Shown one piece after another: positions 3,235 through 61,775 of a DNA stretch of 64,000 nucleotides (position 1 is its first letter; every line of letters begins with the position of its first letter). This DNA comes from Anaerococcus sp. Marseille-P3625. Its GTDB lineage: Bacteria > Bacillota > Clostridia > Tissierellales > Peptoniphilaceae. The stretch is from NCBI RefSeq assembly GCF_900232825.1, contig NZ_OCTP01000011.1:831262-895261 (forward strand), written 5' to 3'. Under the pieces are notes generated by a model. That model was not told the DNA's origin. It made no database searches and saw only the letters and a program-made list of their open reading frames with translations. The translations under genes and the position numbers were made by a program.

Positions 3235-3237
3235 TAT

Positions 3238-3274
3238 AAAAGTGATGCAGGAAAAATCCAGCATCACTTTTTTG
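3238..3274 (+). terminator. Rho-independent terminator of the pilus operon
   Basis: AAAGTGATGC pairs perfectly with GCATCACTTT; an inner GGA/TCC pair narrows the loop, and a T run follows. Confidence 0.9.
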
Positions 3275-3340
3275 TTGGGAATTTTTAGGTTGTTGAGATT
3301 TTTTATTTTAGGATAAGAAAATGAGATCCCTCGACTACGC

Positions 3341-3446
3341 TCGGGATGCCAGGGGTTAGTTGTAAGCGAGCAATGCCAGGGTTTATGAGTAAATTCGGGA
3401 TATCAGGAGTTGGGTGTAAGCCTGGGATGTGCCAGGAGATTATTCG
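3341..3446. repeat. Four degenerate direct repeats of about 27 bp in a gene-free spacer
   Basis: The 3275-3631 spacer holds no convincing gene. Units around GGGATGCCAGGGGTTAGTTG start near 3343, 3370, 3398 and 3424, with variants CAATGCCAGGGTT, GGGATATCAGGAGTT and GGGATGTGCCAGGAG. The array begins with CTCGACTACGCTCGGGATG. Downstream, AAACATC-GATA-GATGTTT (about 3500-3517) can form a hairpin. The spacer is less AT-rich than its surroundings, as expected for an imported intergenic repeat. Confidence 0.6.
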
Positions 3447-3631
3447 AAAATACGGAACATGCGAAAAATGCTAAGCAAAGCTCTGACATCGTAAGCGGAA
3501 AACATCGATAGATGTTTGGAGTCGAAAGATCTCAAAATTATAGCTTTAATAAAAAACTAAGAGATGATTCGACTTGCTAGGTTCGCTCAAGGTGCTAGAA
3601 AGCTTTCCGACTTTAAGTTTTCAATTTTTAT

Positions 3632-4429
3632 CTACAAGACAAATCTATCCAAATAATAGGCGATTCCGTCTTCGTCGTTTGACAAAGTTATATAATCTGC
3701 TATTTCTTTTAAGTCGTCAACTGCATTTGCCATGGCAACACCCACTCCTGCAGTTTCTATCATGGTCAAATCGTTTAATTCATCGCCAAAAGCTACGATA
3801 TCTTCTCTTTTGATTCGGTAAAATTTGGCGATTTCTAAAAGACTTGCTCCCTTGGAAAGGCCCTTGGGCATCACTTCGTAATTATAGGCATGGCTTCTAA
3901 CTTGGCTTGTGATTTCTCCATAATTTTCTTCCAAAAATGGATAGTATTTATCAACTTTTTCTGGTTCTCCTGCAAAAAGAATCTTATTTATCTTAAAGGA
4001 AAGATTTTCTCTTACATCTGGAATTATTTTGCTTTGAAGTTTTAAAAGTCTGACCTCATGATCCAAATATTTATGGCTTTTATCAGAAATGAGTATATCA
4101 CCATGGGAAAGGACTATATCTAGGTCGATTTTTTGGCTTTCTTTTAGGATTTTTCTTGCAAGATCCATATCCAAGAAATGATCGGCTAAAATTTCTCCAC
4201 TGGCAAAATCTGTTATGGTTGAGCCGTTGTTGCTCGATAATAGGCCATGGAATTTGTCAAATTCTAATTCTTCTGCCAAAGCGCTTAGGCCAGGAGCTGG
4301 TCTTCCAGATACTATTACGATTTTGTTGCCATTTTTTGCTGCCTTTATCAAGGTATCTTTGGTTTTTTTGCTTATTTGATTTTTGCTATTTATTAGTGTC
4401 CCGTCGACATCTACTGCTATTAATTTCAT
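3632..4429 (-). CDS. Cof-type HAD-IIB sugar-phosphate phosphatase
   Basis: 265 residues. Start 4429 (MKLIAVDVDGT) is preferred over the ATG at 4441 because GGAGAAG lies just upstream of it and overlaps the earlier ATG. Motif I is DVDGTL (nucleophile Asp7, acid/base Asp9), motif II is IVSGR, and motif IV GDELNDLTM binds magnesium. The cap region fits the Cof/YidA group, which dephosphorylates sugar phosphates or cofactors; the substrate cannot be read from sequence. It lies downstream of the EIIA gene on the same strand, separated from it by a terminator. Confidence 0.9.
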   Translation of the reverse strand: MKLIAVDVDGTLINSKNQISKKTKDTLIKAAKNGNKIVIVSGRPAPGLSALAEELEFDKFHGLLSSNNGSTITDFASGEILADHFLDMDLARKILKESQKIDLDIVLSHGDILISDKSHKYLDHEVRLLKLQSKIIPDVRENLSFKINKILFAGEPEKVDKYYPFLEENYGEITSQVRSHAYNYEVMPKGLSKGASLLEIAKFYRIKREDIVAFGDELNDLTMIETAGVGVAMANAVDDLKEIADYITLSNDEDGIAYYLDRFVL

Positions 4430-4483
4430 TATCTTCTCCAATTTTTCTTTTCCATTTTTATTTTACCCTAAAGTAATTTTTAT

Positions 4484-4521
4484 AAAAAAATCCCAGCCCA
4501 GGATCTATCCTAAGCTGGGAG
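4484..4521 (-). terminator. Terminator after the EIIA gene
   Basis: On the minus strand TCCCAGC pairs with GCTGGGA, with a further AGGAT/ATCCT pairing inside, followed by TTTTTTTAT. Confidence 0.85.
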
Positions 4522-4525
4522 AAAT

Positions 4526-5056
4526 TTATTTTGCAATAACTTCCAAAACTGGGTCGGTGTTTGATACTTCTAAGTCACTTTCTAAAACTTTTACATCAAA
4601 TTCGTCAGTATTTGTTATAATTATTGGTGATTGGAGAGATTTGCCAGCCTCTTTGATTTTTTCTATATCAAAATCCATTAATAAGTCGCCTTTTTTGACC
4701 TCATCATAGATTTCTACATGGCTTATAAATCCTTCGCCCTTTAATTCTACGGTGTCTATGCCTATATGAATTAGAATTTCTGCTCCAGCTTTTGAGCTTA
4801 TTCCAATGGCATGTGAAGAATCCGCAAGTAGGGAAATTTTTCCATCGCAAGGTGAGTAAACTTTGCCCAAACTTGGAACTATTAGGCAGCCTTTGCCCAC
4901 AATTTCTGTAGAAAATACTTTATCTATACATTCTTTGATGTCTAATTTTTGGCCAAGCATGGGCGAGTAGATGATTTCTTTTGAATTTTTTGTTGGTTTT
5001 TCATTTTCTAAATCATCGTCATTTTCATCTTTTTTAAATATATCAAATATTCCCAT
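4526..5056 (-). CDS. crr: PTS glucose-type EIIA component
   Basis: 176 residues from ATG 5056, with GGAG upstream; longer reading adds an unlikely N-terminus. After an acidic leader (1-25) comes the EIIA-Glc fold. His97 in ILIHIGIDTVELKGEGF is the expected phosphorylated histidine and His82 in DSSHAIGI its partner; both are present. It passes phosphate from HPr to a membrane EIIBC. No EIIBC lies in the window, so this free-standing EIIA must serve permeases elsewhere. nagB nearby makes N-acetylglucosamine or glucose uptake plausible, which is inference. Confidence 0.88.
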   Translation of the reverse strand: MGIFDIFKKDENDDDLENEKPTKNSKEIIYSPMLGQKLDIKECIDKVFSTEIVGKGCLIVPSLGKVYSPCDGKISLLADSSHAIGISSKAGAEILIHIGIDTVELKGEGFISHVEIYDEVKKGDLLMDFDIEKIKEAGKSLQSPIIITNTDEFDVKVLESDLEVSNTDPVLEVIAK

Positions 5057-5146
5057 AATTAATCTCCATTCTTTTCTTGAGTTTTTATATTTATACCCAA
5101 TGAATATATGATAAATTCTCTTTGGCAAAATTTTACATGGCAATCG

Positions 5147-5175
5147 TTTACTTGATTTTTAAAATAAGTTATACT
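5147..5175 (+). promoter_or_regulatory. Sigma-A-type promoter of the cysteine desulfidase operon
   Basis: TTTACT (5147-5152), a 17-base spacer, then TATACT (5170-5175), about 45 bases before the start codon. Confidence 0.6.
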
Positions 5176-5219
5176 ATAAATGTGGCTATTTTGGCTAATA
5201 ATCTTATTGAGGTGATAGA

Positions 5220-6503
5220 TTGAATAGTAAAGAAATTAAAGAAGAGCTTATAAATATTGTAAAGGAAGATTCTACAAAAGCCATTGGCTGTACAGAGCCT
5301 GTTGCAGTTGCTTATGCTGCCAATGTTTGTAGTCAATATTTAGAAAAATCCGATATTTGTAAGATCGATTTAGAAGTTAGTAGAAATATTTATAAAAATG
5401 GCAAGGCTGTAAAAATCCCGACAACCAAGGCGGCTGGTTTGGATTTGGCAGCAAGTCTTGGAGCTTTTTCCAAAAAATGCGACCAGCCACTTTTGGTTTT
5501 TTCTAATTTGACAGAAGAAGAAATAAAAAAAGCAAAAGACTTTGTAGATTTGGTGAGCGTTAAGTATTTGGAAGATGTTTCAGATCTTTACATAGGAGTA
5601 AAAATTTTTACCAAAGAAGAAAGCGCTAGGGTAATTATTTCAGATTCTCACACGCATATTGACCAAATTTGGAAAAATGATGAGCTTATTTTTGACGATC
5701 CTATAAAAGATACTGGAAAATCCGCTTTTTCTATAAAAAATATGTCCTTTGAGGAGCTTTCTAAAATTGTAAAAGAAATGGACTTGGCAGATATTTATTT
5801 TGTCTTGGAAGGTGTCGATGTAAATCTTGCCGCAGCCAAAGAAGGACTTAAAGGCTATGGCCTAAATCTCGGCAAAAAGCTAAGCACTCTTAAAGATAAT
5901 GGAATTTTGCCGGATAATTTTGTTACACAAACGAGAATCCTAACAGCAGCAGCTGCCGATATGAGAATGGGTGGCGGTCCTCTGCCAATAATGACTTCAG
6001 GTGGCTCTGGCAATCAAGGAATAGGAATTATCATTCCAATTTATATGGTTTATCAATACGAAAATTTAAGCTTTGACACTTTGGCAAGAGGTTTATTTTT
6101 TGCCCATGTAATCAATCGTTATGTCAAAGAATATTCGGGCAAACTTAGCGGTATGTGCGGCTGTGCCATCGGAGCTGCTATTGGAGCAAGTGCTGCTATA
6201 GCTTTTATGCTGGATGGTGATGAAAAGCAAATTGCTGGAGCTTGTACAAATGTTTTTGCAAATCTTACTGGCATGATTTGCGATGGAGCTAAGGAATCTT
6301 GCTCTATGAAATTATCCACAAGCGCTGAAGAATCAATTATTGCTGCTTATTTGTCGTTAAATGGTATAATTACTGACAAAAATGTTGGCATTGTTGGAGA
6401 AAGCATTGAAGATACAATTTCTAATATAGGCAAGCTTTCCCACGAAGGATTTTCTAAGGCTGATGATGTGATGCTAGAAATAATTAACAATGAAAAGAGG
6501 TAA
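5220..6503 (+). CDS. cyuA: L-cysteine desulfidase family (CyuA/YhaM; SDH-alpha fold)
   Basis: 427 residues starting at TTG 5220, behind GAGGTGAT. The N-terminal IGCTEPVAVA holds Cys24, and the C-terminal part has MCGCAIGAAIGAS and further cysteines in GACTN, MICDG and ESCSMKL, the pattern of the oxygen-sensitive [4Fe-4S] desulfidase/serine dehydratase-alpha family. It would break L-cysteine into pyruvate, ammonia and sulfide. A symporter follows after 3 bases, suggesting uptake coupled to degradation. L-serine is the main alternative substrate. Confidence 0.85.
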   Translation: MNSKEIKEELINIVKEDSTKAIGCTEPVAVAYAANVCSQYLEKSDICKIDLEVSRNIYKNGKAVKIPTTKAAGLDLAASLGAFSKKCDQPLLVFSNLTEEEIKKAKDFVDLVSVKYLEDVSDLYIGVKIFTKEESARVIISDSHTHIDQIWKNDELIFDDPIKDTGKSAFSIKNMSFEELSKIVKEMDLADIYFVLEGVDVNLAAAKEGLKGYGLNLGKKLSTLKDNGILPDNFVTQTRILTAAAADMRMGGGPLPIMTSGGSGNQGIGIIIPIYMVYQYENLSFDTLARGLFFAHVINRYVKEYSGKLSGMCGCAIGAAIGASAAIAFMLDGDEKQIAGACTNVFANLTGMICDGAKESCSMKLSTSAEESIIAAYLSLNGIITDKNVGIVGESIEDTISNIGKLSHEGFSKADDVMLEIINNEKR

Positions 6504-6506
6504 TCT

Positions 6507-7703
6507 ATGAAAAAGAAAAGTATTTTTAATTCCCTGTTATTTAAACTTGTATTTGGTATTATTCTGGGAATTTTTATTGGTAGAGTTTCTAATGAAACTT
6601 TGATGATGATCTTTGATACTGTAAAATCAGTACTTGGTCAACTTATATTTTATGCAGTGCCAATCATAATTTTGGGCTTTATTACACCAGCTATAGTATC
6701 TCTAAGCGAGGATGCTGGCAAAGTTTTGACTACAACCTTAGTTATTTGCTATTTATCATCAATAGGTGCGGCATTTTTCTCGCTTATAGTTGGAAATGCA
6801 GTTATTCCAAGCTTAAATATAGCAAGTGAAGTGGCAGGACAAAGAGAAATTCCTGAATCAATTTTCAAATTAGGCATAGATCCACTAATGCCAGTAATGA
6901 CAGCTTTGGTTACATCAATTATTTTTGGTCTTGCAGTAGTTTGGACCAAATCAGAAACATTTACTAAACTTTTAAAAGAATTTAACAACATAACCTTAGA
7001 AATAGTAAATAGAGTAATTATAAAAATTCTTCCATTTTTTATCTTTACAACCTTTGCAGAACTTTCCTACACAGGCGTAATCAACGAGCAATTGCCAGTA
7101 TTTATCAAGATTATTTTAATTGTAATTGTCATGCATTATATATGGCTTGCCCTTCTTTATGGCATCGGAGGAACGATCTCAAAAACAAATCCAATGGAAG
7201 TTTTAAAACATTATGGACCAGCTTATGTAACAGCTCTTGGAACTATGTCATCTGCAGCAACCTTATCAGTTGCCCTTAAACAAGTTAGAAAAGCAAAAAC
7301 TTTAGATGCTAAAATCAGAGATTTTGTAATTCCACTTTGCTCAAATACTCATCTTTGTGGATCAGTTTTGACAGAAACATTTTTTGTAATGGTAGTTTCA
7401 CAAATTCTCTACGGAAAAATTCCTGCTATGGGAGATATGATTTTATTTATCCTACTTCTTGGAATTTTTGCAATCGGCGCACCAGGAGTACCAGGCGGAA
7501 CGGTAATGGCATCTCTTGGACTAATAATTTCTGTTTTAGGTTTTGGCGATAATGGAACAGCTTTGATGCTTTCAATATTTGCCCTACAAGATTCTTTTGG
7601 TACAGCTTGTAATATTACAGGCGATGGAGCAATAGCTTTAATGGTAACAGGATTATTTAAAAAAGTTCCAAAAGAAGAAATAAAAATCGAAGAAAATATT
7701 TAA
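6507..7703 (+). CDS. DAACS-family Na+/H+-coupled amino-acid or dicarboxylate symporter
   Basis: 398 residues, polytopic. The family signatures are present: MSSAATLSVALKQ (the serine-rich re-entrant loop), GAPGVPGGTVMA and a late LQDSFGTACNITGDG segment containing the substrate and sodium sites. It belongs with the glutamate/aspartate, SstT and TcyP transporters. Operon linkage to the desulfidase suggests cysteine, cystine or serine as cargo; sequence alone does not decide. Confidence 0.87.
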   Translation: MKKKSIFNSLLFKLVFGIILGIFIGRVSNETLMMIFDTVKSVLGQLIFYAVPIIILGFITPAIVSLSEDAGKVLTTTLVICYLSSIGAAFFSLIVGNAVIPSLNIASEVAGQREIPESIFKLGIDPLMPVMTALVTSIIFGLAVVWTKSETFTKLLKEFNNITLEIVNRVIIKILPFFIFTTFAELSYTGVINEQLPVFIKIILIVIVMHYIWLALLYGIGGTISKTNPMEVLKHYGPAYVTALGTMSSAATLSVALKQVRKAKTLDAKIRDFVIPLCSNTHLCGSVLTETFFVMVVSQILYGKIPAMGDMILFILLLGIFAIGAPGVPGGTVMASLGLIISVLGFGDNGTALMLSIFALQDSFGTACNITGDGAIALMVTGLFKKVPKEEIKIEENI

Positions 7704-7771
7704 TAAATATGGTAAGATTTTTCATTTGTGGGTAAAATATTAAATGTAATTTTAATAAGGAGTGAACTAAA

Positions 7772-8494
7772 ATGAAAGTAATAGTGTCAAAAGACTACGA
7801 TGAAATGAGTAAAAAAGCTGCTGATTTTATCATTAACATGATGATAGAAAAACCACAAGCAAAATTTGGCTTTGCAACAGGTTCAACCCCAATTGGTATG
7901 TATGAATATTTGGCTAAGGCTAACAAAGAAGGAGAAATTTCTTTTAAATATGCCAAAAGCGTAAACTTAGATGAATATATAGGAATTGACAAAGAAAACG
8001 ACCAATCTTACCAATATTTTATGAATGAAAATTTATTTAACAAGGTAGATTTCAAAGAAGGTACAACACATTTGCCGTTTGCTCCAGAAGCAGATGAAAA
8101 ATACGCCAAAGAATACGATGAACTTTTAGATGAATTTGGTCAAAGAGATATACAAGTTTTAGGACTTGGACCAAATGGCCACCTTGCTTTTAATGAGCCA
8201 GCAGAAAAATTAAATCAAAGAACATCTATAATAAAACTAACAGAAGAAACAATAAAGGCAAATTCTAGATTTTTCAAATCAGAAGATGACGTGCCAAAAT
8301 ACGCAATTTCCATGGGAATGGCAGATGTTTTCGATGCCAAAACCCTAGTAGTTCTTGCTAATGGCAAAAACAAACACGAAGTTGTTAGAAGAATTCTCGA
8401 AGAAGATACAGTTTATCCAGAATTCCCAGCAAGTTTCTTACATCTACATCCAAATTGCTATTTGTTTGTAGACCAAGAAGCCTACGAAGGCTAA
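7772..8494 (+). CDS. nagB: Glucosamine-6-phosphate deaminase
   Basis: 240 residues, the usual size of short Gram-positive NagB. FATGSTPIGMYEYL binds phosphate, NLDEYIG holds the catalytic Asp, and GLGPNGHLAFNEP holds the catalytic His and neighbours. It converts glucosamine-6-phosphate to fructose-6-phosphate and ammonia, feeding amino sugars into glycolysis. AAGGAG precedes ATG 7772. It has its own terminator and no nagA beside it. Confidence 0.95.
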   Translation: MKVIVSKDYDEMSKKAADFIINMMIEKPQAKFGFATGSTPIGMYEYLAKANKEGEISFKYAKSVNLDEYIGIDKENDQSYQYFMNENLFNKVDFKEGTTHLPFAPEADEKYAKEYDELLDEFGQRDIQVLGLGPNGHLAFNEPAEKLNQRTSIIKLTEETIKANSRFFKSEDDVPKYAISMGMADVFDAKTLVVLANGKNKHEVVRRILEEDTVYPEFPASFLHLHPNCYLFVDQEAYEG

Positions 8495-8519
8495 AAATTT
8501 TAAAGAAATTTAATAGAGA

Positions 8520-8562
8520 AAAAAAGATCCCTAAAGTATCTTACTTTATGGGATCTTTTATA
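8520..8562. terminator. Bidirectional terminator between nagB and the M29 peptidase
   Basis: AAAGATCCC-TAAAGTA pairs with TACTTTA-(T)-GGGATCTTT around a three-base loop, with A and T runs at the two ends, so it can serve both convergent genes. Confidence 0.9.
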
Positions 8563-8575
8563 TTCAGAAATTTTG

Positions 8576-9808
8576 TTAAAATGCCCAATTGCCATTTTCA
8601 AATATTGGGAATTCTTTTTCGCCTTTGTAGGCTGTAATTTTTAGATCGGAATTTCCAACCATAAAATCTTCGTGGATTAGGGAATCGTTGATTCCTCTTT
8701 CTTTTAACTTGTCATCATCCAAATCTGCTCCACCTACAACGCAAGTTGGATAAGCCTTGCCTAGGGCAAAGTGGCAGGATGCATTTTCGTCAAATAAGGT
8801 GTTGTAAAATAAAATATTTGAATTAGAAATTGGACTATCGTATGGAACTAGAGCAATTTCTCCTAAGTTTTTGCTACCTTCATCGCTTTCTAGCATTTTG
8901 GCAAGAGTTTCCTTGCCTTCTTTGGCATCAAAATCGATAACTTTGCCATTTTCAAATATAAATTCAAAATCATTTATAACAACTCCGTTGTAAACAAGCG
9001 GTTTTGTTGCTACAAGTTTTCCGTCTACTCCGTCATATTGTGGGGCTGTGAAAACTTCTTCTGTTGGCATATTTGGGATAAATAAATCGCCCTTGGCATT
9101 TTTTGAGCCAGCTGACATCCAAATATGATCTTTTGGAAGCTTTACCCAAAGATCTGTGCCATTTTTAGACTCATAGTGAACTTTATCAAATTGATGATCG
9201 TTTAGATATTTTGCTTTTTCTTCTAGGGTTTTGATGTGATTTTCCCAATTTGCTTTGGTTTCTTCCCAAGAATCGGATACTCTTGATACATCAAGTATTA
9301 CTTCCCATAATTTATTGTAAGCTTCTTCTTCGCTAAGATCTGGGAATACTTTTTTTGCCCATTTTTTACTTGGAACAGAAATTACCAGCCAACTTACAAT
9401 ATCGTTCATGGTGTATTTGACAAATTCTTTTGCAGCCTTAGAATTTTCACGAACTGCTTCGGAAATTTTCTTTTGGTCAAGGCCCTTTAATAAATCTGGA
9501 TCTTCGCTAGCGATGGAAATTCTGTTTGATTTTTTCTCAGCTATTTGATATTTTAATTTTTCTATCTTCCAAGAAGCAACTTCATTTAAAGTTTCTTGGT
9601 CTTGATTTTCAAAGGCAAGTCTTGTAAGTGTATCATCACGCCAATCCACAGAAACAAGACGAGCGCCTTTTTCGTAAGCAGCCTTGGTAATTAGCCTACA
9701 AAGCTCTGGACTTTCAACAGGTGAATTTATCAAAACGTCCTCACCTTCTTTAACATTAACCCCAAACTCAACAGCAAGCTTAGCAAAATTTTCAATTCTC
9801 TTGTCCAT
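8576..9808 (-). CDS. M29 family aminopeptidase (AmpS/PepS type)
   Basis: 411 residues from ATG 9808, which has GGAGG 6-7 bases upstream; an ATG at 9820 overlaps that site. Metal-binding motifs of M29 peptidases are visible: NMPTEEVFTAP, the histidine in CHFALGKAYPTC, and a late MVGNSDLKI. The enzyme removes N-terminal residues from cytoplasmic peptides using two metal ions. It fits with the peptide importers and PepF genes in the window. Confidence 0.92.
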   Translation of the reverse strand: MDKRIENFAKLAVEFGVNVKEGEDVLINSPVESPELCRLITKAAYEKGARLVSVDWRDDTLTRLAFENQDQETLNEVASWKIEKLKYQIAEKKSNRISIASEDPDLLKGLDQKKISEAVRENSKAAKEFVKYTMNDIVSWLVISVPSKKWAKKVFPDLSEEEAYNKLWEVILDVSRVSDSWEETKANWENHIKTLEEKAKYLNDHQFDKVHYESKNGTDLWVKLPKDHIWMSAGSKNAKGDLFIPNMPTEEVFTAPQYDGVDGKLVATKPLVYNGVVINDFEFIFENGKVIDFDAKEGKETLAKMLESDEGSKNLGEIALVPYDSPISNSNILFYNTLFDENASCHFALGKAYPTCVVGGADLDDDKLKERGINDSLIHEDFMVGNSDLKITAYKGEKEFPIFENGNWAF

Positions 9809-26476: not shown

Positions 26477-26508
26477 TACTATATCATAACATTATGGAGG
26501 AGATATTC

Positions 26509-28767
26509 ATGAAAATGAAAAAAGTTTTTTCTTCCCTTATGGCACTAGGATTGGCAACAACACTAGTAGCTTGTGGAGGAAATACTGACAAAGATGCTGA
26601 AAAACCAGCTGACAATGCAAATGAAGCAACTGAAACTGAAAATAAAGATGATGCTTCAAAAGACGAAAACGCAGATACTGAAGATAAGGCAGATGATAAA
26701 ACCGACGACAAACAAGGCGATGAAAACGCTGACGATGAAGATGCTGAAGCTAAAAAAGAATTAGAAAACTTTGAAAAACAAACAGCAGATGATACTCTTG
26801 TAATTGGTACAAGCGAATTGAACGGCGACTGGCTACAAGGTTGGACAAACTCTGCATACGATGTTAAAGTTAGAAGACTTCTTGGTATCGAAGGTAACAA
26901 CGGTTACGGTACAGTAGTTCAAGATGAAGGTGGCCAATGGGTAACAAACTCAACTGTTGTTGATGGCGAAATCGAAAAAATCGACAACCCAGATGGATCA
27001 AGAACTTATAGAACAAAAATTAAAAAAGGTCTAAAATATTCTGATGGCGTAGAAATTAAATCTGACGATTTCTTATTTGGAAATCTACTATTCTCACATC
27101 CATCATATATACCAGTAACAGCAGCTACAACAATAGGTGCAGATTCAGCTAAGGGTTATGAAGCATATCACAATGGAGATAAAGATATATTTGAAGGTCA
27201 AAAGAAAATTGACGATTATACATTCGAATATACAGTAGATGCTTCATTCTTACCATATTTCGAAGAAGCTTCTTTGATGGGTTTAAGTCCATTCCCAATG
27301 CATGAAGTTACTGAAAACTTAGTAGTAAGCAAAGATGGCCAAAAGCTTGAAACAAAAGAAGGCTACCAAGTTACTGAAGAAGATAAGAAAAACTACAAAG
27401 ATTCTTTACAACAACAAATAGACAAACAAAACGAAGACTTCGATACTAACTATCCAGCTCCAAAAGATGATGCTAGCGAAGATGAAAAAGCTGAATACAA
27501 TGCAGCAAAAGAAGAACATGATGCAGCAATCAAAAAACTTGAAGAAAAACGTGATGGCGAAGTAGATCCAACAATCTTATTGATTGAACAAGCTATGCTT
27601 AACGTTGCTAACAACTACAGAACAAATCCAAAAGCTGTAACAGGACCTTATGTATATGAGGGATTTGAAAATAACATGGTTAAACTATCACTAAACCCAG
27701 AATATGCTGGAAACTTCAAAGGTGATAAGGCTACAATCCCACACATCATAGTACAAACAGTTAACGCAAATATTGCTGTAGACTTACTAGAAAATGGCGA
27801 TATCGATATTTGGGAAGAAGAAGCTGACGGTGGTAAGATCGACCAAATGAGAGCTGCTACTGATGCTGGAAAGATCAAATACAACACATTTGAAAGAAAT
27901 GGTTATGGAGATCTTTCATTTATCACAGATAGAGGAGCTACTCAATATAAAGAAGTTCGTCAAGCTATAGCAAGCTTAATGGATAGAAATACTTTCGTAC
28001 AACAATTTGCTGGTGGTTACGGTGTCGTAACTAACGGTATGTATGGTACAAGCCAATGGATGTACAAAGAAAGAGGAGCAGATCTAGAAACAGGTGGCAA
28101 GATTGTTAACTGGCAACTAAACTTAGAGAAAGCTAATGAATTACTTGATAAAACACCATATAAATTCGAAGCTGATGGAAAAACTCCATGGGATAAGAAA
28201 AAATCTGACGAAGCATTTGCAAAAGATGCTGAAGGATACAATTATTGGAGATATGATGATAAGGGTAAACAACTTGTAGTTAACCAATACGGTTCTGATG
28301 AATCACCTATTACAACATTAATTTCTAACCAACTTCCAGTAAACGCTAAACAAGTTGGTATGGAATATAACGTAACAGCAGGTTCATTTGCAACACTACT
28401 AGAATACTACACAACACCAAAAGAAGATGCTGAGTATACAGCATTTAACATGGGCTTAAGCTTTGGTACACCATATGATCCTTACTATCAATACAACTCA
28501 AAAGGATTTGATAATAAGACAAAGACTAATGATCCAAAAGCAGACGAAATTACAGAAAAACTTCGTAAGACAGATCCAGAAGATAAAGAAGGTTACCTAG
28601 ATGCTTGGGAAGAATTCCAAATTTGGTATAACGACTATCTACCAGAAATTCCACTATACTCTAACCAATATCACACAGGATATACAAACAGAGTACAAGG
28701 ATTTGACGTATGTACACCAGTTTGGGGCGTAGTAGAACAAATCAACGCTATGTCACTTGGCAAGTAA
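26509..28767 (+). CDS. oppA: Oligopeptide ABC transporter substrate-binding lipoprotein
   Basis: 752 residues from ATG 26509; the ATG at 26494 overlaps the GGAGGAG site and is rejected. The lipobox is LVACGG, followed by a 60-residue Asp/Glu/Ala/Lys-rich tether. Family 5 solute-binding signatures follow (KIKKGLKYSDGVEIKSDDF). It is longer than typical OppA, partly because of a charged, probably helical insertion (about 290-345, QQQIDKQNEDF... KKLEEKRDGE). It captures peptides outside the cell for OppBCDF. A hairpin terminator separates it from oppB, giving excess binding protein. Confidence 0.92.
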   Translation: MKMKKVFSSLMALGLATTLVACGGNTDKDAEKPADNANEATETENKDDASKDENADTEDKADDKTDDKQGDENADDEDAEAKKELENFEKQTADDTLVIGTSELNGDWLQGWTNSAYDVKVRRLLGIEGNNGYGTVVQDEGGQWVTNSTVVDGEIEKIDNPDGSRTYRTKIKKGLKYSDGVEIKSDDFLFGNLLFSHPSYIPVTAATTIGADSAKGYEAYHNGDKDIFEGQKKIDDYTFEYTVDASFLPYFEEASLMGLSPFPMHEVTENLVVSKDGQKLETKEGYQVTEEDKKNYKDSLQQQIDKQNEDFDTNYPAPKDDASEDEKAEYNAAKEEHDAAIKKLEEKRDGEVDPTILLIEQAMLNVANNYRTNPKAVTGPYVYEGFENNMVKLSLNPEYAGNFKGDKATIPHIIVQTVNANIAVDLLENGDIDIWEEEADGGKIDQMRAATDAGKIKYNTFERNGYGDLSFITDRGATQYKEVRQAIASLMDRNTFVQQFAGGYGVVTNGMYGTSQWMYKERGADLETGGKIVNWQLNLEKANELLDKTPYKFEADGKTPWDKKKSDEAFAKDAEGYNYWRYDDKGKQLVVNQYGSDESPITTLISNQLPVNAKQVGMEYNVTAGSFATLLEYYTTPKEDAEYTAFNMGLSFGTPYDPYYQYNSKGFDNKTKTNDPKADEITEKLRKTDPEDKEGYLDAWEEFQIWYNDYLPEIPLYSNQYHTGYTNRVQGFDVCTPVWGVVEQINAMSLGK

Positions 28768-28787
28768 TATAAAAATAATACTAAATT

Positions 28788-28812
28788 AGCTCACGAGGAG
28801 TGAGCTTTTTTA
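28788..28812 (+). terminator. Terminator/attenuator between oppA and oppB
   Basis: GCTCAC-GAGGA-GTGAGC followed by TTTTTT. Confidence 0.9.
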
Positions 28813-28945
28813 GTTTTTGCCAATAAATTATTAAAATATGTAATCGTGTACTTTTATAAATTAATTTGAATTTTTATATATAGATAATGTAAAAAAATTA
28901 ACAAAGGGAAAATACGTTTTTTTAGAAAAAAATTAATCTTTTTTA

Positions 28946-28975
28946 TTTGACAAAATTTGTCAAATACATTAATAT
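28946..28975 (+). promoter_or_regulatory. oppB promoter overlapped by a perfect 19-bp palindrome
   Basis: TTTGACAAAATTTGTCAAA (28946-28964) is a perfect 9-1-9 inverted repeat. It contains the -35 TTGACA (28947-28952); after a 17-base spacer comes -10 TAATAT (28970-28975). A regulator bound here would block the -35. The rest of the 28813-29109 spacer is AT-rich and otherwise blank. Confidence 0.7.
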
Positions 28976-29109
28976 AGTAATAATAAAATTGTTGTTTTTG
29001 GAATACTTTATCTATTTAAAGACAAGCTTTTACATAAAATAAAGTCGCGATTATTTAATACAAATAAATTAATAATTTTACAATTCCAAATAACAAAGAA
29101 AGGGAAGTT

Positions 29110-30072
29110 ATGTTTCGTTATATAGTAAAGAGAATGATAAATCTTATACCAGTAGCTATAATTATTTCTATTATGCTTTTTGCTTTCTCTAAAGCTATGC
29201 CTGGAGATCCAATTAGGGCTATGATTCCAACTGGAACTCGTATGACTAAAGCTCAGCAAGAAAGTTTATACAAGCAATTACAACATCGCTACGGATATGA
29301 TAAGTCACTACCTGAACAATACATAATGTGGTTGGGTAGATCATTAAAGGGAGATTTTGGTGAATCAACCAGAGTTAAAAAGCCAGTAAGGGAATATTTG
29401 AAAGAACCTTTGAGAAATACAATTTATCTTAACTTAGGTTCTACAGTAATATCCTTTGTACTTTCGGTATTGATAGGTATTAGATCGGCAACGCACAGAG
29501 GAGGAGTCTTTGATAAAACCTTCCAGACTCTAACGCTGATAGGTATAAGTGTCCCTGTATTTTTCATAGGACTTATTTTAATTTACCTATTAGCTTTTAA
29601 GGCAGGTGCTTTCCCTGCAAATGGTATGCCACGTAATAATACATTCCCAGAATGGATAAAATACTTGACCTTACCAACTATAACCTTGACCATAGGCTCT
29701 CTTGCAGGACTTTCAAGATATGTTAGAAACTCAATGCTTGATGCCCTTAACCAAGATTATATTAGAACTGCAAGATCTAAGGGTCTAAAAGAAAAGACTG
29801 TTGTTTATTCTCATGCCTTTAGAAACGCACTTATTCCAGTAGTTACAGCTTTAACTTGGGCAGTTCTTGGAATGTTTTCAGGCTCTGCTATTACTGAGAG
29901 GATTTTTGCCTACAGAGGAATAGGAAATGAGCTTATAACTGCCGTAATAGCACAAGACTACAATGTAATTTTAACCTTATCAATGTTTTATGCACTTTTA
30001 ACCTTGATTGGGAACTTGATAATGGATATAGCTTATGCTCTAGTAGATCCTAGAGTAAAATTAGAAGCGTAA
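29110..30072 (+). CDS. oppB: Oligopeptide ABC permease OppB
   Basis: 320 residues, six membrane segments. The start MFRYIVKRMINLIPVAIIIS and the cytoplasmic EAA loop (DYIRTARSKGLKEKTVVYSHAFRNA) are typical of OppB/DppB. AAAGGGAAG precedes ATG 29110. It pairs with the modified OppC encoded 10 bases downstream. Confidence 0.93.
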   Translation: MFRYIVKRMINLIPVAIIISIMLFAFSKAMPGDPIRAMIPTGTRMTKAQQESLYKQLQHRYGYDKSLPEQYIMWLGRSLKGDFGESTRVKKPVREYLKEPLRNTIYLNLGSTVISFVLSVLIGIRSATHRGGVFDKTFQTLTLIGISVPVFFIGLILIYLLAFKAGAFPANGMPRNNTFPEWIKYLTLPTITLTIGSLAGLSRYVRNSMLDALNQDYIRTARSKGLKEKTVVYSHAFRNALIPVVTALTWAVLGMFSGSAITERIFAYRGIGNELITAVIAQDYNVILTLSMFYALLTLIGNLIMDIAYALVDPRVKLEA

Positions 30073-30082
30073 GAGGTGGGCA

Positions 30083-32047
30083 ATGAATAGTTTAATTCGT
30101 AAATCATTTTCTTCATATAAGAGATTTTTAAAAACATTACTCATCCGTGGTTTTACTTTCGCATCAGATAGCGATATTTATGAAAGTGAAAGAAAAGACG
30201 CTGAGAAAAGAAAAGCTGAAGAAGAAAAAGCAAACAATAATAATTCAAATAAAACTCCTAATTCTTCTAATGAGAACGATGCATTAAAAGAAGAAGCAAT
30301 TAGATCTCCAGGCCAAGTTGCCCTTAGAAACTTTCTTAGAAACCCTTTGGGAGTATTTGGATTAGTATTATTTATATCTTTAATACTAGTAGTATTTGTT
30401 GGAAGCGCAATACTTCCTTTTAACCAATATTATTCTCAAGGTAACCTTACAAATGTCGCACCAGGAGGTGCTTACATGAATTTTCCAAAGGAAATGGAAA
30501 GTGAAGGAACCAAGAAAATATCTATTGGTAATACTTTTGCCATAGGTTTAACCAACGAGGGAAATATTTATGTTTGGGGTTCTGATAATGAAGATAAGAT
30601 TCTTACCATCCCTAAAAAAGCCAAAGAAGCCCTCAAAAACCAAAAAGTTATAGACGTGGCTGCTGGTGATAGACATATTATTTTTGCAACAGAAGATAAT
30701 CAAATTTATGGTTGGGGTAATAATTCCTTTGACCAAACCAAAATGCCACCAATGTCAGAAAGTCAAATCAAAGAAGAAGGCATCAAGAAACTTGGAGCAG
30801 GTGTTCAATATTCAGCTATTTTAACCAACAAGAAAAACTTAGTCGTTTGGGGTTCAACGCTCGCAAGCCGTCTAAATATGATCCCATCAACAATACAAGG
30901 ACAAGTTGAAGACTTTGATACTTCATCTATTAATATGTTAGTTGCAAAAACTGATGGAACTATCCAATTAATCGGTGTAATGGGTGCTGAAAACCAAACC
31001 AATATGCCAAAAGAATTAACTGATGGAAGCGTAAAAGTTAAAAAAGTTGCTCTAACAGCTAACTCAGCTGCAGCAGTTGATGAAGATGGTAAAGTTTATG
31101 TTTGGGGTCCAAGTAGAGCTGGAGTAGCAGGGGACAATATTCCAAAATTTGACGGAAAAATCGTCGATATTCAAGGTGGAGAAACAACTTTCACAGCCCT
31201 AGATGAAAATGGCAAAATTTATAACTGGGGTCTAGATAACTACGGTGAACTAAATACTCCAGATGGAGAATACCAACAAATATTTACATCATTTTTCAAC
31301 AATTATGCAGTAACTAAAGATGGAAAGATTGAAACTTGGGGACTAAATGGTTTTAGATTTGGTTCAGACGATCAAGGTCGTGATATATTTACAAGACTTA
31401 TCCACGGCGGACGTATGACCATGCTAATTTCTTTAGTTTCTACAGTAATCCAACTTGTACTAGGAGTACTTATCGGTATGATTTCAGGTTTTGCCGGAGG
31501 TCGTGTTGATAATGTATTGATGAGAATTTCTGAAATTATTTCATCATTCCCATTTTATCCTATGCTAATTTCACTTTCAGCATTGTTGCCACCAGGAGCA
31601 AGCCAAACACAAAGAATTACCATGGTAATGATCCTTTTAGGTTTACTTGGTTGGACAGGACTTGCACGTTTAGTTCGTGGTCAAATCTTGGCTGAAAGAG
31701 AAAGAGATTATATAACAGCAGCCCGTGCTTTGGGTGTAAAAAACTGGTCAATAATTATGAAGCACATTTTCCCGAATGTCCTATCAATAGTTATAGTAAA
31801 TGCGACACTAGATTATGCTGGTAACTTACTATCAGAATCAGGCTTATCATTCCTTGGTTTTGGTGTACAAGAGCCAACACCGTCATGGGGCAATATGTTA
31901 ACTGCAGCTCAAAAATCAGATGTACTAAACTTTTACTGGTGGAGATGGGTATTCCCAGCACTTGCAGTATTCTTAGTATCATTTTCAATTAACCTTATTG
32001 GTGATGCCATAAGAGATGCAATTGACCCAAGAGCAAATGAGAGGTAG
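30083..32047 (+). CDS. oppC: OppC permease with an inserted seven-repeat RCC1-like beta-propeller
   Basis: 654 residues, about twice normal OppC. A charged Asn/Glu/Lys-rich N-terminus leads to the first helix (about 91-112). Normally a short external loop then joins the SDDQGRDIFTRL motif (428-439). Here about 280 residues (144-423) intervene, with seven repeats whose cores are IYVWG 162, IYGWG 208, LVVWG 253, IQLIG 294 (degenerate), VYVWG 338, IYNWG 379 and IETWG 416, spaced 37-46 residues, each preceded by a G-x-x-x-A/T-L-T-x-x-G-type strand pair. That is the RCC1 pattern and enough for a closed propeller. Remaining helices and the EAA loop (ERDYITAARALG) are ordinary. The domain should face outward, near OppA. 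Confidence 0.93.
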   Translation: MNSLIRKSFSSYKRFLKTLLIRGFTFASDSDIYESERKDAEKRKAEEEKANNNNSNKTPNSSNENDALKEEAIRSPGQVALRNFLRNPLGVFGLVLFISLILVVFVGSAILPFNQYYSQGNLTNVAPGGAYMNFPKEMESEGTKKISIGNTFAIGLTNEGNIYVWGSDNEDKILTIPKKAKEALKNQKVIDVAAGDRHIIFATEDNQIYGWGNNSFDQTKMPPMSESQIKEEGIKKLGAGVQYSAILTNKKNLVVWGSTLASRLNMIPSTIQGQVEDFDTSSINMLVAKTDGTIQLIGVMGAENQTNMPKELTDGSVKVKKVALTANSAAAVDEDGKVYVWGPSRAGVAGDNIPKFDGKIVDIQGGETTFTALDENGKIYNWGLDNYGELNTPDGEYQQIFTSFFNNYAVTKDGKIETWGLNGFRFGSDDQGRDIFTRLIHGGRMTMLISLVSTVIQLVLGVLIGMISGFAGGRVDNVLMRISEIISSFPFYPMLISLSALLPPGASQTQRITMVMILLGLLGWTGLARLVRGQILAERERDYITAARALGVKNWSIIMKHIFPNVLSIVIVNATLDYAGNLLSESGLSFLGFGVQEPTPSWGNMLTAAQKSDVLNFYWWRWVFPALAVFLVSFSINLIGDAIRDAIDPRANER

Positions 32048-33061
32048 ATGAATATGAGTTTATTAGAAATAAAAAAACTCCACACCTATTTTTCCACAAG
32101 ACGTGGACTAATAAAGGCTGTAAATGGAGTGTCATATACTATTGATGAAGGAAAAACTCTAGGACTTGTTGGAGAATCTGGTTCAGGTAAGAGTCAAACT
32201 GCTATGAGTATTCTTCAACTTTTTGAACCTAACCAAAAAATTTACCAAGGCGAAATTATTTTTGATGGACGTGATCTAACAAAACTTAAAAAAGGCGAAA
32301 TGGAACATATAAGAGGTAATGATATCTCTATGATTTTCCAAGAGCCTATGAGTTCGCTAAACCCAGTATTTACAGTAGAAAAACAAATATCTGAAGTTTT
32401 GATCCTCCATAAGCACATGAACAAAAAAGAAGCTGCCAAAAGATGTGAAGAACTTCTAGCTTCTGTAAAAATACCAAACCCACACATAGTTGCCAAGCAA
32501 TACCCATTTGAATTATCAGGTGGTATGAACCAAAGAGTTATGATTGCCATGGCACTTGCCTGTGAGCCAAAACTACTAATTGCAGATGAGCCTACAACAG
32601 CCCTTGATGTAACTATTCAAGCGCAAATTCTAAGACTTATGAATGATTTAAAGCACAGACTAAACACATCTATACTTTTCATCACCCATGACCTTGGAGT
32701 TATAAATCAAATGGCAGATGAAGTTGCAGTAATGTATTCTGGACAAATTGTAGAGCAATCTCCAGTAGAATATATATTTAAAACCGACATTACAGATTTT
32801 AACCATCCATATACAGTAGCTTTGCTAAATTCTATCCCATCAATAACAAGTGATAGAAACCAAAGACTTGATATAATACCAGGATCTGTACCACACCCAC
32901 TAAACCTACCACCTGGATGTAAATTTGCAGATAGATGTAAATTCACAACAGAAAAATGTATCAATCAAATGCCGGAATTAGTACAAGTTACTGATCAGCA
33001 AAGGATTAGATGTCACTATCCAAATAGAAAGGAAAGAGAAGATGGAACATACCGAAGATAA
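32048..33061 (+). CDS. oppD: Oligopeptide ABC ATPase OppD
   Basis: 337 residues; ATG 32048 directly follows the oppC stop, with a second ATG at 32054 possible. Walker [11 protein letters not shown]-loop FQEPMSSLNP, signature LSGGMNQRV, Walker [13 protein letters not shown]. The C-terminal oligopeptide domain keeps four cysteines (GCKFADRCKF, EKC, RCHY), the pattern that binds [4Fe-4S] in this family. It overlaps oppF by 20 bases. Confidence 0.93.
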   Translation: MNMSLLEIKKLHTYFSTRRGLIKAVNGVSYTIDEGKTLGLVGESGSGKSQTAMSILQLFEPNQKIYQGEIIFDGRDLTKLKKGEMEHIRGNDISMIFQEPMSSLNPVFTVEKQISEVLILHKHMNKKEAAKRCEELLASVKIPNPHIVAKQYPFELSGGMNQRVMIAMALACEPKLLIADEPTTALDVTIQAQILRLMNDLKHRLNTSILFITHDLGVINQMADEVAVMYSGQIVEQSPVEYIFKTDITDFNHPYTVALLNSIPSITSDRNQRLDIIPGSVPHPLNLPPGCKFADRCKFTTEKCINQMPELVQVTDQQRIRCHYPNRKEREDGTYRR

Positions 33062-34661
33062 GAAAGTCTTATTTAAGATAAGAAGTCTTAAAAAATATTT
33101 CCCTCTTAAGAAAAAGGGCATTTTTGATAGAAGCGCACAACAATACGTTCATGCTAACGAGTCTATCAATCTAGATATTTATCAAGGTGAAACCCTAGGA
33201 CTTGTAGGAGAATCAGGCTGTGGAAAATCAACATTTGGTAGAACTCTTCTTCAAATATATGATCAAACCGAGGGAACAACTCTTTACTATGGAAAGACTC
33301 TAGAAGAATTTGCTCCAGAATATATGGAAAAAATGATCAAAAATATTCCAAGTCAGTTTCAAAATTACGATAAAGCAAGCACAGAGCTAAATGAAATCTA
33401 TGATAGCCTCGATAAGGCAGAAACTGATGAAGAACGTGCAAAAGCCAACGAAGCTGCTATGCACAAACGTCGTGAAATCGAAGATAAATACCTAAATATG
33501 ATTAGAATTGCGGGAGGCCTTCTTGCAAGCGATGATTTATCAAAAGTATCAAACCTATTATTAGATTATTACCAAGCTCTAAAAGAACGTGCTGTTGTCT
33601 TAGAAAATATAGAAACTTTTGAAGATAAACTAAAAATGAGATGTAGAGATTGGGATACTTATTACAATCTCCGCGATAATGATAGCAAATACAAAGAACT
33701 TATAAGCAAAAAAGATGAACTTTCAAAAAAAGTTGATGAAAAATCTCAAAGAATCGAAGAATTTAGAAATACTCTAAAAGATAAGGAAAACTTTGAAGAA
33801 CTTGAAAGCCATAAAGATAGTGGTATCGACCTATCAGAATTAACCAATGAAGAGATGAGAGGCCTTAGAAAAGACCTACAAATGATCTTCCAAGACCCAT
33901 ATGGTTCACTAGATACCAAAATGACTGTAGGAAATATCATAGGCGAGGGAGTTTTAGGTCACGAATTATTCAAATCACGTAATGATAAGGGTTACAATGA
34001 ATATATCCAAGAGACTATGGACAAATGCGGACTAGCGCCATATTTCCTTCACAGATATCCTCACCAATTCTCAGGTGGACAAAGACAAAGAATTGGAATA
34101 GCAAGAGCTCTTGCATTAAAACCAAAATTTATAGTTTGCGATGAGGCTGTATCTGCCCTTGACGTATCAATCCAATCACAAATTATAAACTTGCTACAAG
34201 ACCTAAAAGAAGAAAACAACCTAACATATTTATTTATCACTCACGACCTATCAGTAGTAAAATATATCTCTGATAGAATTGGAGTAATGTATTTGGGAGT
34301 ATTGGTAGAATTAACAGAATCTGATAAAATATTCGAAAAACCACTTCACCCATATACCCAAGCCCTATTACAAGCAATTCCAAGAACTGACGTAGATCAA
34401 GGACAAGAATTACAAGTAATAGAAGGCGATATCCCATCAGCAGTACATCCTCCAAAAGGATGCCGTTTCCATACCAGATGTAAATATGCAATGGATATCT
34501 GCAGAACTTATGAACCAGAGCTTAAGGACTATGACAATGGTCACTTTGTAGCTTGCCACCTAATGGAAGTAAGCGAAGAAGAAAAACAAAAAGCCTATGA
34601 GAAAAATAAAGAATTAAGAGAAAAAGAAGAACACGAACTAGAAGAGATGAGTGCTCTATGA
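33042..34661 (+). CDS. oppF: Oligopeptide ABC ATPase OppF with a long helical insertion
   Basis: 539 residues against about 320-330 for usual OppF. Walker A GESGCGKST (56-64) is normal, but the Q-loop MIFQDPYGSLD appears only near residue 281, so roughly 170 extra residues (about 88-265) lie between them. The insert is rich in Glu, Lys, Asp and Leu with likely coiled coils (ISKKDELSKKVDEKSQRIEE). Signature FSGGQRQRIGIARAL, Walker B FIVCDEAVSALD and the four-cysteine C-terminal domain are intact, so it should be active. A Glu/Lys-rich tail ends the protein. Confidence 0.9.
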   Translation: MEHTEDKKVLFKIRSLKKYFPLKKKGIFDRSAQQYVHANESINLDIYQGETLGLVGESGCGKSTFGRTLLQIYDQTEGTTLYYGKTLEEFAPEYMEKMIKNIPSQFQNYDKASTELNEIYDSLDKAETDEERAKANEAAMHKRREIEDKYLNMIRIAGGLLASDDLSKVSNLLLDYYQALKERAVVLENIETFEDKLKMRCRDWDTYYNLRDNDSKYKELISKKDELSKKVDEKSQRIEEFRNTLKDKENFEELESHKDSGIDLSELTNEEMRGLRKDLQMIFQDPYGSLDTKMTVGNIIGEGVLGHELFKSRNDKGYNEYIQETMDKCGLAPYFLHRYPHQFSGGQRQRIGIARALALKPKFIVCDEAVSALDVSIQSQIINLLQDLKEENNLTYLFITHDLSVVKYISDRIGVMYLGVLVELTESDKIFEKPLHPYTQALLQAIPRTDVDQGQELQVIEGDIPSAVHPPKGCRFHTRCKYAMDICRTYEPELKDYDNGHFVACHLMEVSEEEKQKAYEKNKELREKEEHELEEMSAL

Positions 34662-41660: not shown

Positions 41661-42611
41661 ATGGTAAAAATGATATTAAAAAGATTAGCACAAAGCATAC
41701 CGATGATAATAACAATATCAATTGTATCTTTTTTGCTAATTAGGGTTGCTCCTGGAGATCCTGTAAGGGCCTTGGTTACTCCCGAATCGTCCTTTGAAGA
41801 TATAGAAAGAATAAGAGAGGCCATGGGTTTAAATGATAATTACTTGGTTCAATATGCGAGATGGGCCAAGGCAGTTTTACAAGGCGATTTCGGGTATTCA
41901 TTTTCAAATCACAGACCGGTTCTAGAGCAAATAGTTGAAAGATTGCCACAAACTTTAGGTTTGATGGTTTCAGCCTTGATAATTTCTTTAGTAATCGGAA
42001 CAATAATAGGAATTATTTCTGCTATGAATAACGGAGGAATTTTTGACAAAATCTTTACTTTCTTATCATATGTTGGAATTTCTATACCTAGTTTTTGGTT
42101 TGCTATGATTTTGATTCATATTTTATCACTAAAATTAGGATGGCTGCCTTCAATTGGTATGAGAACTTTGGGAGTTGATACAACGGCTGATTTGATAAAG
42201 CATTCAATAATGCCTGTCTTAACCTTATCTATTTCTGATACTGCAACTATTTCAAGATATGTTAGAGCTAGAGTTGTAAGCGAACTAAAAGAGGATTATG
42301 TAATGACGGAAAGAGCTCAAGGCTTTTCAAAAACAGATTTATTTTTCAAAAGTATCTTAAAAAACTCTCTTTTACCAATAATTACAATCTTAGGAATGGG
42401 ACTACCTAGACTTATATCAGGTGCTTTTATAACAGAAAGTATATTTGGTTGGCCAGGACTTGGACAACTTGGAATGAATGCGATATTTAAGTATGACTAT
42501 CCGCTAATAATGGCTACAACAATGTTTGCATCCTTATTATTAATATTTGGAAATCTTTTAAGCGATATTTTATATATGATAGTAGATCCTAGAATAAAAG
42601 AGGCACAATGA
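41661..42611 (+). CDS. Peptide ABC permease (AppB/DppB type)
   Basis: 316 residues, six membrane segments, OppB-like start (MILKRLAQSIPMIITISIVS) and EAA loop (DYVMTERAQGFSKTDLFFKS). AGGAG precedes ATG 41661. Its stop overlaps the next start (ATGA). Confidence 0.93.
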   Translation: MVKMILKRLAQSIPMIITISIVSFLLIRVAPGDPVRALVTPESSFEDIERIREAMGLNDNYLVQYARWAKAVLQGDFGYSFSNHRPVLEQIVERLPQTLGLMVSALIISLVIGTIIGIISAMNNGGIFDKIFTFLSYVGISIPSFWFAMILIHILSLKLGWLPSIGMRTLGVDTTADLIKHSIMPVLTLSISDTATISRYVRARVVSELKEDYVMTERAQGFSKTDLFFKSILKNSLLPIITILGMGLPRLISGAFITESIFGWPGLGQLGMNAIFKYDYPLIMATTMFASLLLIFGNLLSDILYMIVDPRIKEAQ

Positions 42612-43423
42612 TGAAGAACTTAAAAAATAAATTCAAATATAGCCCGCTTTCCTTTAAATTTTCAGTTATTGCAATAATAATTTTAATATTAGCGGCGGCT
42701 CTTGCTGATTTTTATCCACAAAATGGAATTGATACTGATATTCTTAATTCCCTACAAAAGCCATCAAGTGCCCATTTGTTTGGAACAGATGATTTGGGAC
42801 GTGATTATTTTGCCAGAGCCTTACATGGAGCTCGTGCGTCCTTGTCTGTTGGAATAATATCTGTAATAGTTTCAACCATAATAGGTAGCATTGTAGGTAT
42901 CACAAGCGGATATTTCGGCGGTAAAGTTGATGCAATCATTATGAGGATAGTCGATGTTTTGATGAGTGTTCCATCATTTTTCTTAATTTTAATCCTAAAT
43001 GCAGTTTTAAAACCAGGTATACAAAATATTATTATAATAATCGGTTTATTTAACTGGATGGGCATTGCAAGACTTATGAGAGCAGAAACTTTATCAATTA
43101 AGCAAAGAGAATATGTTTCTTATGCAAAAATGATTGGAATAAGCGATAAAAAAATTATGTTAAAGCATATTTTTAGAAATGTTTTGCCAACCTTATCCGT
43201 TGCAGTTTCAATAAATGTTGCAGGGGCGATACTCACTGAATCTTCACTAAGCTTTTTGGGTCTTGGAGTAAGACAACCTGCATCTTCTTGGGGTTCAATG
43301 CTAAAAGATGCTCAACAATATTTAGGAGATTATTCTTACCTTGCATTCTTTCCGGGTCTATTAATATTAATAACAGTCCTTAGCTTTAACGTTATAGGTG
43401 ATTATCTAAGGGAGGAATACTAA
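42608..43423 (+). CDS. Peptide ABC permease (AppC/DppC type)
   Basis: 271 residues: ordinary OppC architecture with a short external loop before FGTDDLGRDYFARAL, in contrast to the propeller-bearing OppC at 30083-32047. EAA loop is QREYVSYAKMIGISDKK. An alternative ATG lies 3 bases later. Stop overlaps the next start (TAATG). Confidence 0.93.
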   Translation: MMKNLKNKFKYSPLSFKFSVIAIIILILAAALADFYPQNGIDTDILNSLQKPSSAHLFGTDDLGRDYFARALHGARASLSVGIISVIVSTIIGSIVGITSGYFGGKVDAIIMRIVDVLMSVPSFFLILILNAVLKPGIQNIIIIIGLFNWMGIARLMRAETLSIKQREYVSYAKMIGISDKKIMLKHIFRNVLPTLSVAVSINVAGAILTESSLSFLGLGVRQPASSWGSMLKDAQQYLGDYSYLAFFPGLLILITVLSFNVIGDYLREEY

Positions 43424-59413: not shown

Positions 59414-60947
<1,534 letters not shown>

Positions 60948-60948
60948 A

Positions 60949-60976: not shown

Positions 60977-61047
60977 CAGAGAGAAAACTAGAAAAACTAG
61001 AAAAGTAACTCAAAATTAGAAAAGAAAAATAATCATTGATATTACAT

Positions 61048-61727: not shown

Positions 61728-61775
<48 letters not shown>

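Follow-up and report, generated by a model that had tools for sequence, protein, structure and literature searches.

Detailed accounts of how a permease recognizes its binding protein and keeps it in place are known for only a few importers. In the E. coli-type Dpp system, DppC, the partner of DppF, has six membrane helices and a periplasmic region between the first two of them (TM1 and TM2); this TM1-TM2 region differs between DppC and DppB, and in DppB a scoop, bounded by TM1 and the short helix alpha3, reaches into the cleft of DppA (PMC12136057). A large extracytoplasmic region is also present in another type I importer permease, MalF, where P2 (MalF 91-271) directly contacts the binding protein MalE (PMC3150292).

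We analyzed a window of 64,000 nucleotides from Anaerococcus sp. Marseille-P3625, in which an oppABCDF cluster occupies positions 26494-34661 of the plus strand. OppA, OppB, OppD and OppF homologues accompany OppC, as in the E. coli-type DppABCDF and OppBCDF systems (8z1v-8z21; PMC12136057). Its sequence places the importer among the Opp-type (type I) ABC peptide importers, with OppC enlarged by an extra domain. The OppC core matches chain 8z21_B (E 7.3e-49), and OppD and OppF have oligo_HPY C-terminal regions. In contrast with the locus studied here, the solved OppC/DppC chains that we found have 287-302 aa, too short for a propeller, and the solved separate OppF/DppF chains have 333-334 aa, their best stretch aligning only beyond an insertion present in this OppF. 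The initial annotation of the locus, made from the sequence without database searches, knew of no described ABC importer with this layout; our literature search agrees, since no description of an ABC importer permease with an RCC1 propeller was found in open-licence PubMed Central (no preprints, few subscription journals); a search there for an insertion in OppF likewise brought up no related paper.

The oppC gene (30083-32047, plus strand, ATG start) encodes 654 aa, and its coordinates and description in the initial annotation are correct. Membrane helix 1 (aa 89-111, positions 30347-30415) lies in the OppC_N match (aa 75-119, E 6.8e-10, 39.1 bits for a Pfam cut-off of 23.9) and holds a hydropathy peak of 2.92 at aa 89-107. 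It is followed by seven RCC1-type repeats (aa 144-423, positions 30512-31351) and by the permease core (aa 425-654, positions 31355-32044), in which the alignment places the GRD motif (aa 432-434, positions 31376-31384) at the start of the ordinary OppC sequence and Pfam finds BPD_transp_1 at aa 461-651 (E 3.3e-33, 115.4 bits, cut-off 26.4). Pfam, the alignment and a motif table of 76 sequences thus confirm the reading of about 280 residues with seven repeats between helix 1 and GRD, and the permease is intact on either side, both OppC_N and BPD_transp_1 being above their cut-offs. An HMM search combining RCC1 with BPD_transp_1 had been suggested as a check, and both are matched in the same 654-aa protein: RCC1_2 matches in five stretches (E 7.6e-34, 115.1 bits, cut-off 22), and the RCC1 model passes its own cut-off (22.2 bits for 21.7). 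The whole-domain RCC1 model WD40_RLD reaches E 6.9e-37 but 128 bits, under its cut-off of 150, which is passed by the propeller-OppC of locus L108 (168.9 bits). The top NCBIfam model, Opp4C, covers aa 424-650 only with 305.6 bits, under the curated cut-off of 350, so that the protein is not filed as Opp4C. In PDB comparisons, OppC/DppC chains were hit by the core, and HERC2, UVR8, BLIP-II and RCC1 by the insert.

In an alignment of seven propeller and eleven ordinary OppCs, the extra segment sits between the (P/A)P(S/G) motif of the TM1-TM2 loop and (L/F)G(T/S)DxxGRD, and the remaining gaps are short in the inspected parts. The window's other OppC (42608-43423, 271 aa) indeed has the short loop claimed for it, as the alignment shows. 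The hydropathy profile of the propeller-OppC has six hydrophobic stretches, the strongest at aa 89-107, and no 19-residue window above 0.95 within aa 125-425, as would be expected if TM1 were followed by a soluble domain. Since DppC has six membrane helices with a periplasmic TM1-TM2 region (PMC12136057), the propeller should lie on the outer face of the membrane.

The repeats start at about aa 144, 191, 237, 278, 320, 361 and 400. Five of them are given by Pfam, and repeats 4 (degenerate) and 7 were set by eye from the alignment. The motif table covers 76 of the 78 distinct propeller-OppCs, the two most divergent (L107 and L108) being dropped by the score threshold. A WG motif is present in all 76 for repeats 1, 5 and 6, in 72/76 for repeat 7 and in 67/76 for repeat 2; repeat 3 has WG in 52/76 and FG in 22/76, and the motif of repeat 4 is degenerate, mostly LG (53/76). 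A profile of 18 propellers matched UVR8 (4.6e-42), HERC2 (6.4e-38) and BLIP-II (2.2e-26) in the PDB. The repeat signature is shared with these proteins and with RCC1, and the BLIP-II chains (273-287 aa) have about the length of the seven repeats. The repeats of these relatives, which are soluble or parts of other proteins, differ from the present ones, which lie inside a membrane permease. A closed seven-bladed propeller is the fold that we would predict for the OppC insert. The MalF-P2 region is not known to be RCC1-type and is placed elsewhere in its permease.

Conservation is unevenly distributed along the propeller. The conserved positions of the 76 sequences are mostly the framework Gly, Trp and Pro of the repeats. 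The G-x-x-(F/H/Y) loops are more conserved in repeats 7, 1, 2 and 3 (entropy 0.87-1.45) than in repeats 4, 5 and 6 (1.83-2.42), and the WG-side loops have a different pattern, with the lowest values in repeats 7, 6, 3 and 2. The median dN/dS is 0.178 for the propeller and 0.088 for the OppC core (4 of 248 pairs gave no value), and the propeller value stays under 0.5 for 237 of the 244 (non-independent) pairs. The propeller thus evolves at roughly double the rate of the core.

The distribution of the propeller-OppC was analyzed at increasing taxonomic distance. A contig search returned ten records labelled Anaerococcus (query aa 1-654), which fall among the genus genomes on the OppC core tree, and one MAG labelled Erysipelothrix (aa 68-654). 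All 31 searched genomes of the genus contain the propeller-OppC; with the contig records, this rules out the sequencing or assembly chimera named as a possible refutation in the initial annotation, and suggests that the importer is probably a core nutrient system of the genus. In the order, a profile of 18 proteins matched propeller and core in at least 63 of 249 genomes, namely the 31 of the genus, at least 13 other members of the family and at least 19 genomes from five other families. The class sample gave at least 17 of 391 genomes, at least 10 of them outside the order (one of these ten, G463, has a partial profile match, yet RCC1 repeats by Pfam), and the phylum sample at least 14 of 398, at least 12 of them outside the class (in one of these twelve, G917, the propeller-OppC is cut by the contig end). 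These counts are lower bounds, with at most five (order) or three (class and phylum) candidates scored per genome, and at most nine in another search. The propeller profile alone, at E 1e-20, found 23 genomes in the class sample, i.e. the 17 above and six whose reading frames of 299 to 3188 aa encode other propeller-like RCC1 proteins, the long ones perhaps surface proteins. In the window's genome no other RCC1_2 match was found at E 0.001, and three further genes with OppC_N are present.

A tree was built from 143 OppC cores, identical ones being merged: 78 from propeller-OppCs, 50 from ordinary OppCs and 15 from long OppCs without RCC1. The 78 propeller-OppCs occupy one side of one branch (support 99/96, 100% of 200 bootstrap trees); the tree is unrooted, and the group amounts to a single clade only with the root placed outside it. 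Long end branches occur among the ordinary rows, including L163 (OppC of 379 aa), the nearest neighbour of the propeller group. When the insertion is left out and a quick-search tree of the OppF cores is built (46 propeller, 41 ordinary and 15 other long-OppC rows; three of the 44 ordinary rows dropped by length filter or as the same gene), the propeller group is again on one branch side (SH-aLRT 100). The single tree group and the dN/dS values far below 1 indicate that the propeller is old and under purifying selection. A recent acquisition by the genus was rejected, as relatives in the order, class and phylum span propeller and core and fall in one tree group. Several independent RCC1 insertions are not needed either, one change on the tree being sufficient in 100% of the 200 bootstrap trees. 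We also looked for a known phage relative, and the PHROGs matches are only to families for the permease core and for RCC1. Beyond what the initial annotation had seen, the propeller-OppC therefore belongs to an old lineage that extends past family limits, whose OppF and OppB scoop segment also differ from the ordinary forms, as its OppA usually does.

Other large domains in OppC were observed along the way. Twelve loci (L109-L114 and L117-L122) have a long OppC (521-656 aa) whose TM1-TM2 loop likewise carries a large domain, of another kind, for which no Pfam family above cut-off was found in the two inserts scanned and no PDB match in the one searched. In the OppF of these loci, Walker A and Q-loop are at the ordinary distance (49-51), and their OppD open reading frames are long at the N-terminus (384-419 aa), as also seen in three ordinary loci. 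Nine loci of the phylum sample (L205-L213) have a third type of OppC (359-419 aa) with its own shorter loop domain. In L116 and L123, OppC (472-474 aa) seemingly has a hydrophobic N-terminal extension and not a loop domain, as judged from the whole of L123 and the start of L116.

A further difference, outside OppC, concerns the ATPase OppF. The oppF gene (33042-34661, plus strand, 539 aa) matches ABC_tran in two stretches and oligo_HPY, and has an insertion of about 176 aa (33294-33821) that brings the distance from Walker A to Q-loop to 226. This distance is 195-237 in 46/46 propeller loci and 226 in L214, compared to 49-55 in the 44 ordinary loci and 49-51 in the 15 other long-OppC loci. An OppF insertion of about 145-190 residues is consequently present in 47/47 readable propeller loci vs 0/44 ordinary and 0/15 other long-OppC loci. 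The denominators are as follows: for the 78 distinct propeller-OppCs, OppF is readable in 46, a truncated gene in 5 and was not found in 27, many of these stretches being short; the 47th readable gene comes from L214, a longer stretch around the OppC of L023, one of the 27; 44 of the 50 ordinary OppCs have a readable OppF. The insertion is charged and looks helical by eye, has conserved flanks and a variable inside when aligned over 46 loci, and gave no Pfam family above cut-off and no PDB chain at E 0.1. The oppD gene (32048-33061, plus strand; ABC_tran, oligo_HPY) keeps the ordinary distance of 54 from Walker A to Q-loop, as in 74/74 propeller loci read.

One genome, G021, carries a second propeller-OppC (L058). 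On the minus strand, OppB (7628-8650) and the propeller-OppC (5641-7626) are found with OppA (3048-5333), and no OppD or OppF is present within 13 kb around, so that L058 may share the ATPases of L214, the other locus of G021.

Differences are also seen in OppA and OppB. The oppA gene (26494-28767, plus strand, 757 aa) encodes a solute-binding protein of family 5 that carries a lipobox-like LVACG (SBP_bac_5 at aa 164-670, E 3.3e-30); its top NCBIfam model, Opp4A, matches partially with 109.2 bits, under the cut-off of 650. OppA reading frames have 561-866 aa in propeller loci (median 650.5, n=44), 510-635 aa in ordinary loci (median 573, n=42) and 579-836 aa in the other long-OppC loci, without RCC1 (median 780, n=14), lengths being counted from the first ATG, GTG or TTG and perhaps too long, and a few OppAs near contig ends perhaps cut. 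A large OppA accompanies large OppC domains of either kind, those without RCC1 included, and so does not set the propeller apart. A terminator-like hairpin with a T run, seen by eye between oppA and oppB (28788-28811, plus strand), might allow oppA to be made in excess over the membrane subunits; no RNA element was found in the operon at Rfam gathering thresholds. The oppB gene (29110-30072, plus strand) encodes a permease of 320 aa (BPD_transp_1, E 2.6e-40; top NCBIfam model Opp4B with 283.7 bits, under the cut-off of 450) whose scoop-region segment is slightly lengthened. The PGDP-to-GDFG distance has a median of 46 in 57 propeller OppBs vs 40 in 29 ordinary ones, as read by motif in these two groups, with one outlier in each (29 and 32), perhaps misread. 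The propeller as a substitute for the OppB scoop was rejected, the OppB segment being kept and slightly longer.

We then compared the divergence of the transporter parts, using partial correlations of pairwise distances over 42 loci thinned to 30, with the propeller taken as the 300 residues before the core. The propeller-OppA pair has a partial correlation of 0.47 and ranks second of 21 pairs, behind OppC core-OppB (0.56), a known contact. The propeller gives 0.19 with its own core, 0.08 with the OppF insert, 0.06 with OppB and -0.28 with OppD; OppA also gives 0.34 with OppD and 0.28 with OppB. A rank-based version again places propeller-OppA second (0.40). Over 200 subsamples, propeller-OppA exceeded propeller-OppB and propeller-OppF insert in all 200 and propeller-core in 94.5%, and in the 146 closer pairs it ranked highest (0.56), propeller-OppF insert reaching 0.45. 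The raw correlations of the propeller, without partialling, are nearly equal (OppA 0.90, own core 0.88, OppB 0.88). These distances point, indirectly, to OppA as the part whose divergence the propeller tracks most closely; the co-variation could also come from a shared rate regime of fast-evolving outer parts.

The initial annotation had offered three roles for the propeller, i.e. filtering or holding peptides, docking of OppA, and contact with wall or host proteins. We favour docking among them, because the distances co-vary most with OppA and because this loop corresponds to the scoop of DppB. In DppB this TM1-TM2 periplasmic region of about 30 residues meets the binding protein (PMC12136057); here about 300 residues are found in the C subunit, and the OppB segment is kept and slightly longer. 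The position of the DppB scoop and the difference between the TM1-TM2 regions of DppB and DppC (PMC12136057) suggest that the propeller would lie at the pseudo-symmetric place, beside the binding protein. We give about an even chance to the propeller being an outer docking and gating domain for OppA that works like MalF-P2. It would dock the membrane-anchored OppA and orient it above the pore, and would contribute to sealing the peptide cavity while the peptide is handed over, much as MalF-P2 does with MalE, acting from a place pseudo-symmetric to the OppB scoop; contact with OppA and an effect on transport are what we would expect. At lower confidence, the insertion of OppF, which belongs to the same C/F half but lies on its cytoplasmic side, might be part of one allosteric path. 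Docking is favoured by the longer OppA (usually) and longer OppB scoop segment of propeller loci, by the L058 propeller-OppC being accompanied by OppB and OppA only, and by the conserved G-x-x-(F/H/Y) loops of repeats 7, 1, 2 and 3. Counted against it are the overlap of OppA lengths (561-866 vs 510-635), the large OppAs of the other long-OppC loci, the different conservation pattern of the WG-side loops, the near-equal raw correlations together with the values of OppA-OppD (0.34), OppA-OppB (0.28) and propeller-OppD (-0.28), and, in the closer pairs, a propeller-OppF insert value (0.45) not far from that of propeller-OppA (0.56). A subclass of asymmetric importers, in which an OppC propeller outside and a helical OppF insertion inside would let OppA docking be sensed and passed to one ATPase, is a tentative extension that we consider improbable, at somewhat better than one chance in five. 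A widespread lineage that combines an OppC propeller with an insertion in the matching ATPase is a natural experiment on docking and coupling.

The propeller might itself bind extracellular peptides or proteins, pre-concentrating or filtering them near OppA in the manner of BLIP-II, a secreted binder of beta-lactamases (PMC9218822). The BLIP-II profile match (E 2.2e-26) and the variable loops of repeats 4-6 are in line with such a binder, which we judge unlikely, at one chance in five: divergence that tracks OppA fits OppA contact at least equally, no ligand site was identified, and the conserved positions are mostly framework Gly, Trp and Pro. Slightly less probable still is a regulatory column, in which the propeller would be a sensor, either for an outside signal or for the state that OppA is in, and the insertion in OppF would gate ATP hydrolysis or recruit a cytosolic partner. 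It would account for the insertion being in 47/47 readable propeller loci and 0/59 others, for the pairing of DppC with DppF (PMC12136057), for the propeller OppCs and their OppFs each lying on one branch side of their own core trees, and for the 0.45 between propeller and OppF insert in the 146 closer pairs. Against this, the same correlation is only 0.08 over all thinned pairs and the insertion sequence is poorly conserved. With a single origin on the core tree, the linkage of OppC and OppF reflects one joint inheritance and not a repeated gain, so that it may be history.

An envelope anchor or adhesion domain, which would tie the transporter to polymers of the wall, to further surface proteins or to host proteins, is quite improbable. 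It would suit the probable outward position of the propeller (loop place, hydropathy) and the other propeller-like RCC1 proteins of six class-sample genomes (299 to 3188 aa). In the window's genome, though, no second RCC1_2 match was seen that might form the corresponding surface system, and conservation over many families makes a host-specific role unlikely to be ancestral; the wide distribution likewise makes host contact less likely as the ancestral role. That the propeller is a tolerated ornament, fixed without specific role in an OppC loop that accepts insertions (unrelated domains occur in the same loop of other Opp systems, and the propeller evolves at about twice the core rate), is very hard to accept given a repeat framework kept in 76 sequences, dN/dS far below 1 and a propeller kept in 31/31 genomes of the genus.

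Two further observations concern the surroundings of these loci. A second OppA-type gene is located upstream of oppA in several genomes of the genus (loci L006, L008, L009, L010 and L214), some copies being cut by the end of the stretch. The end of the window (59414-64000) contains genes for 16S rRNA, tRNA and 23S rRNA, the last one cut by the window end.
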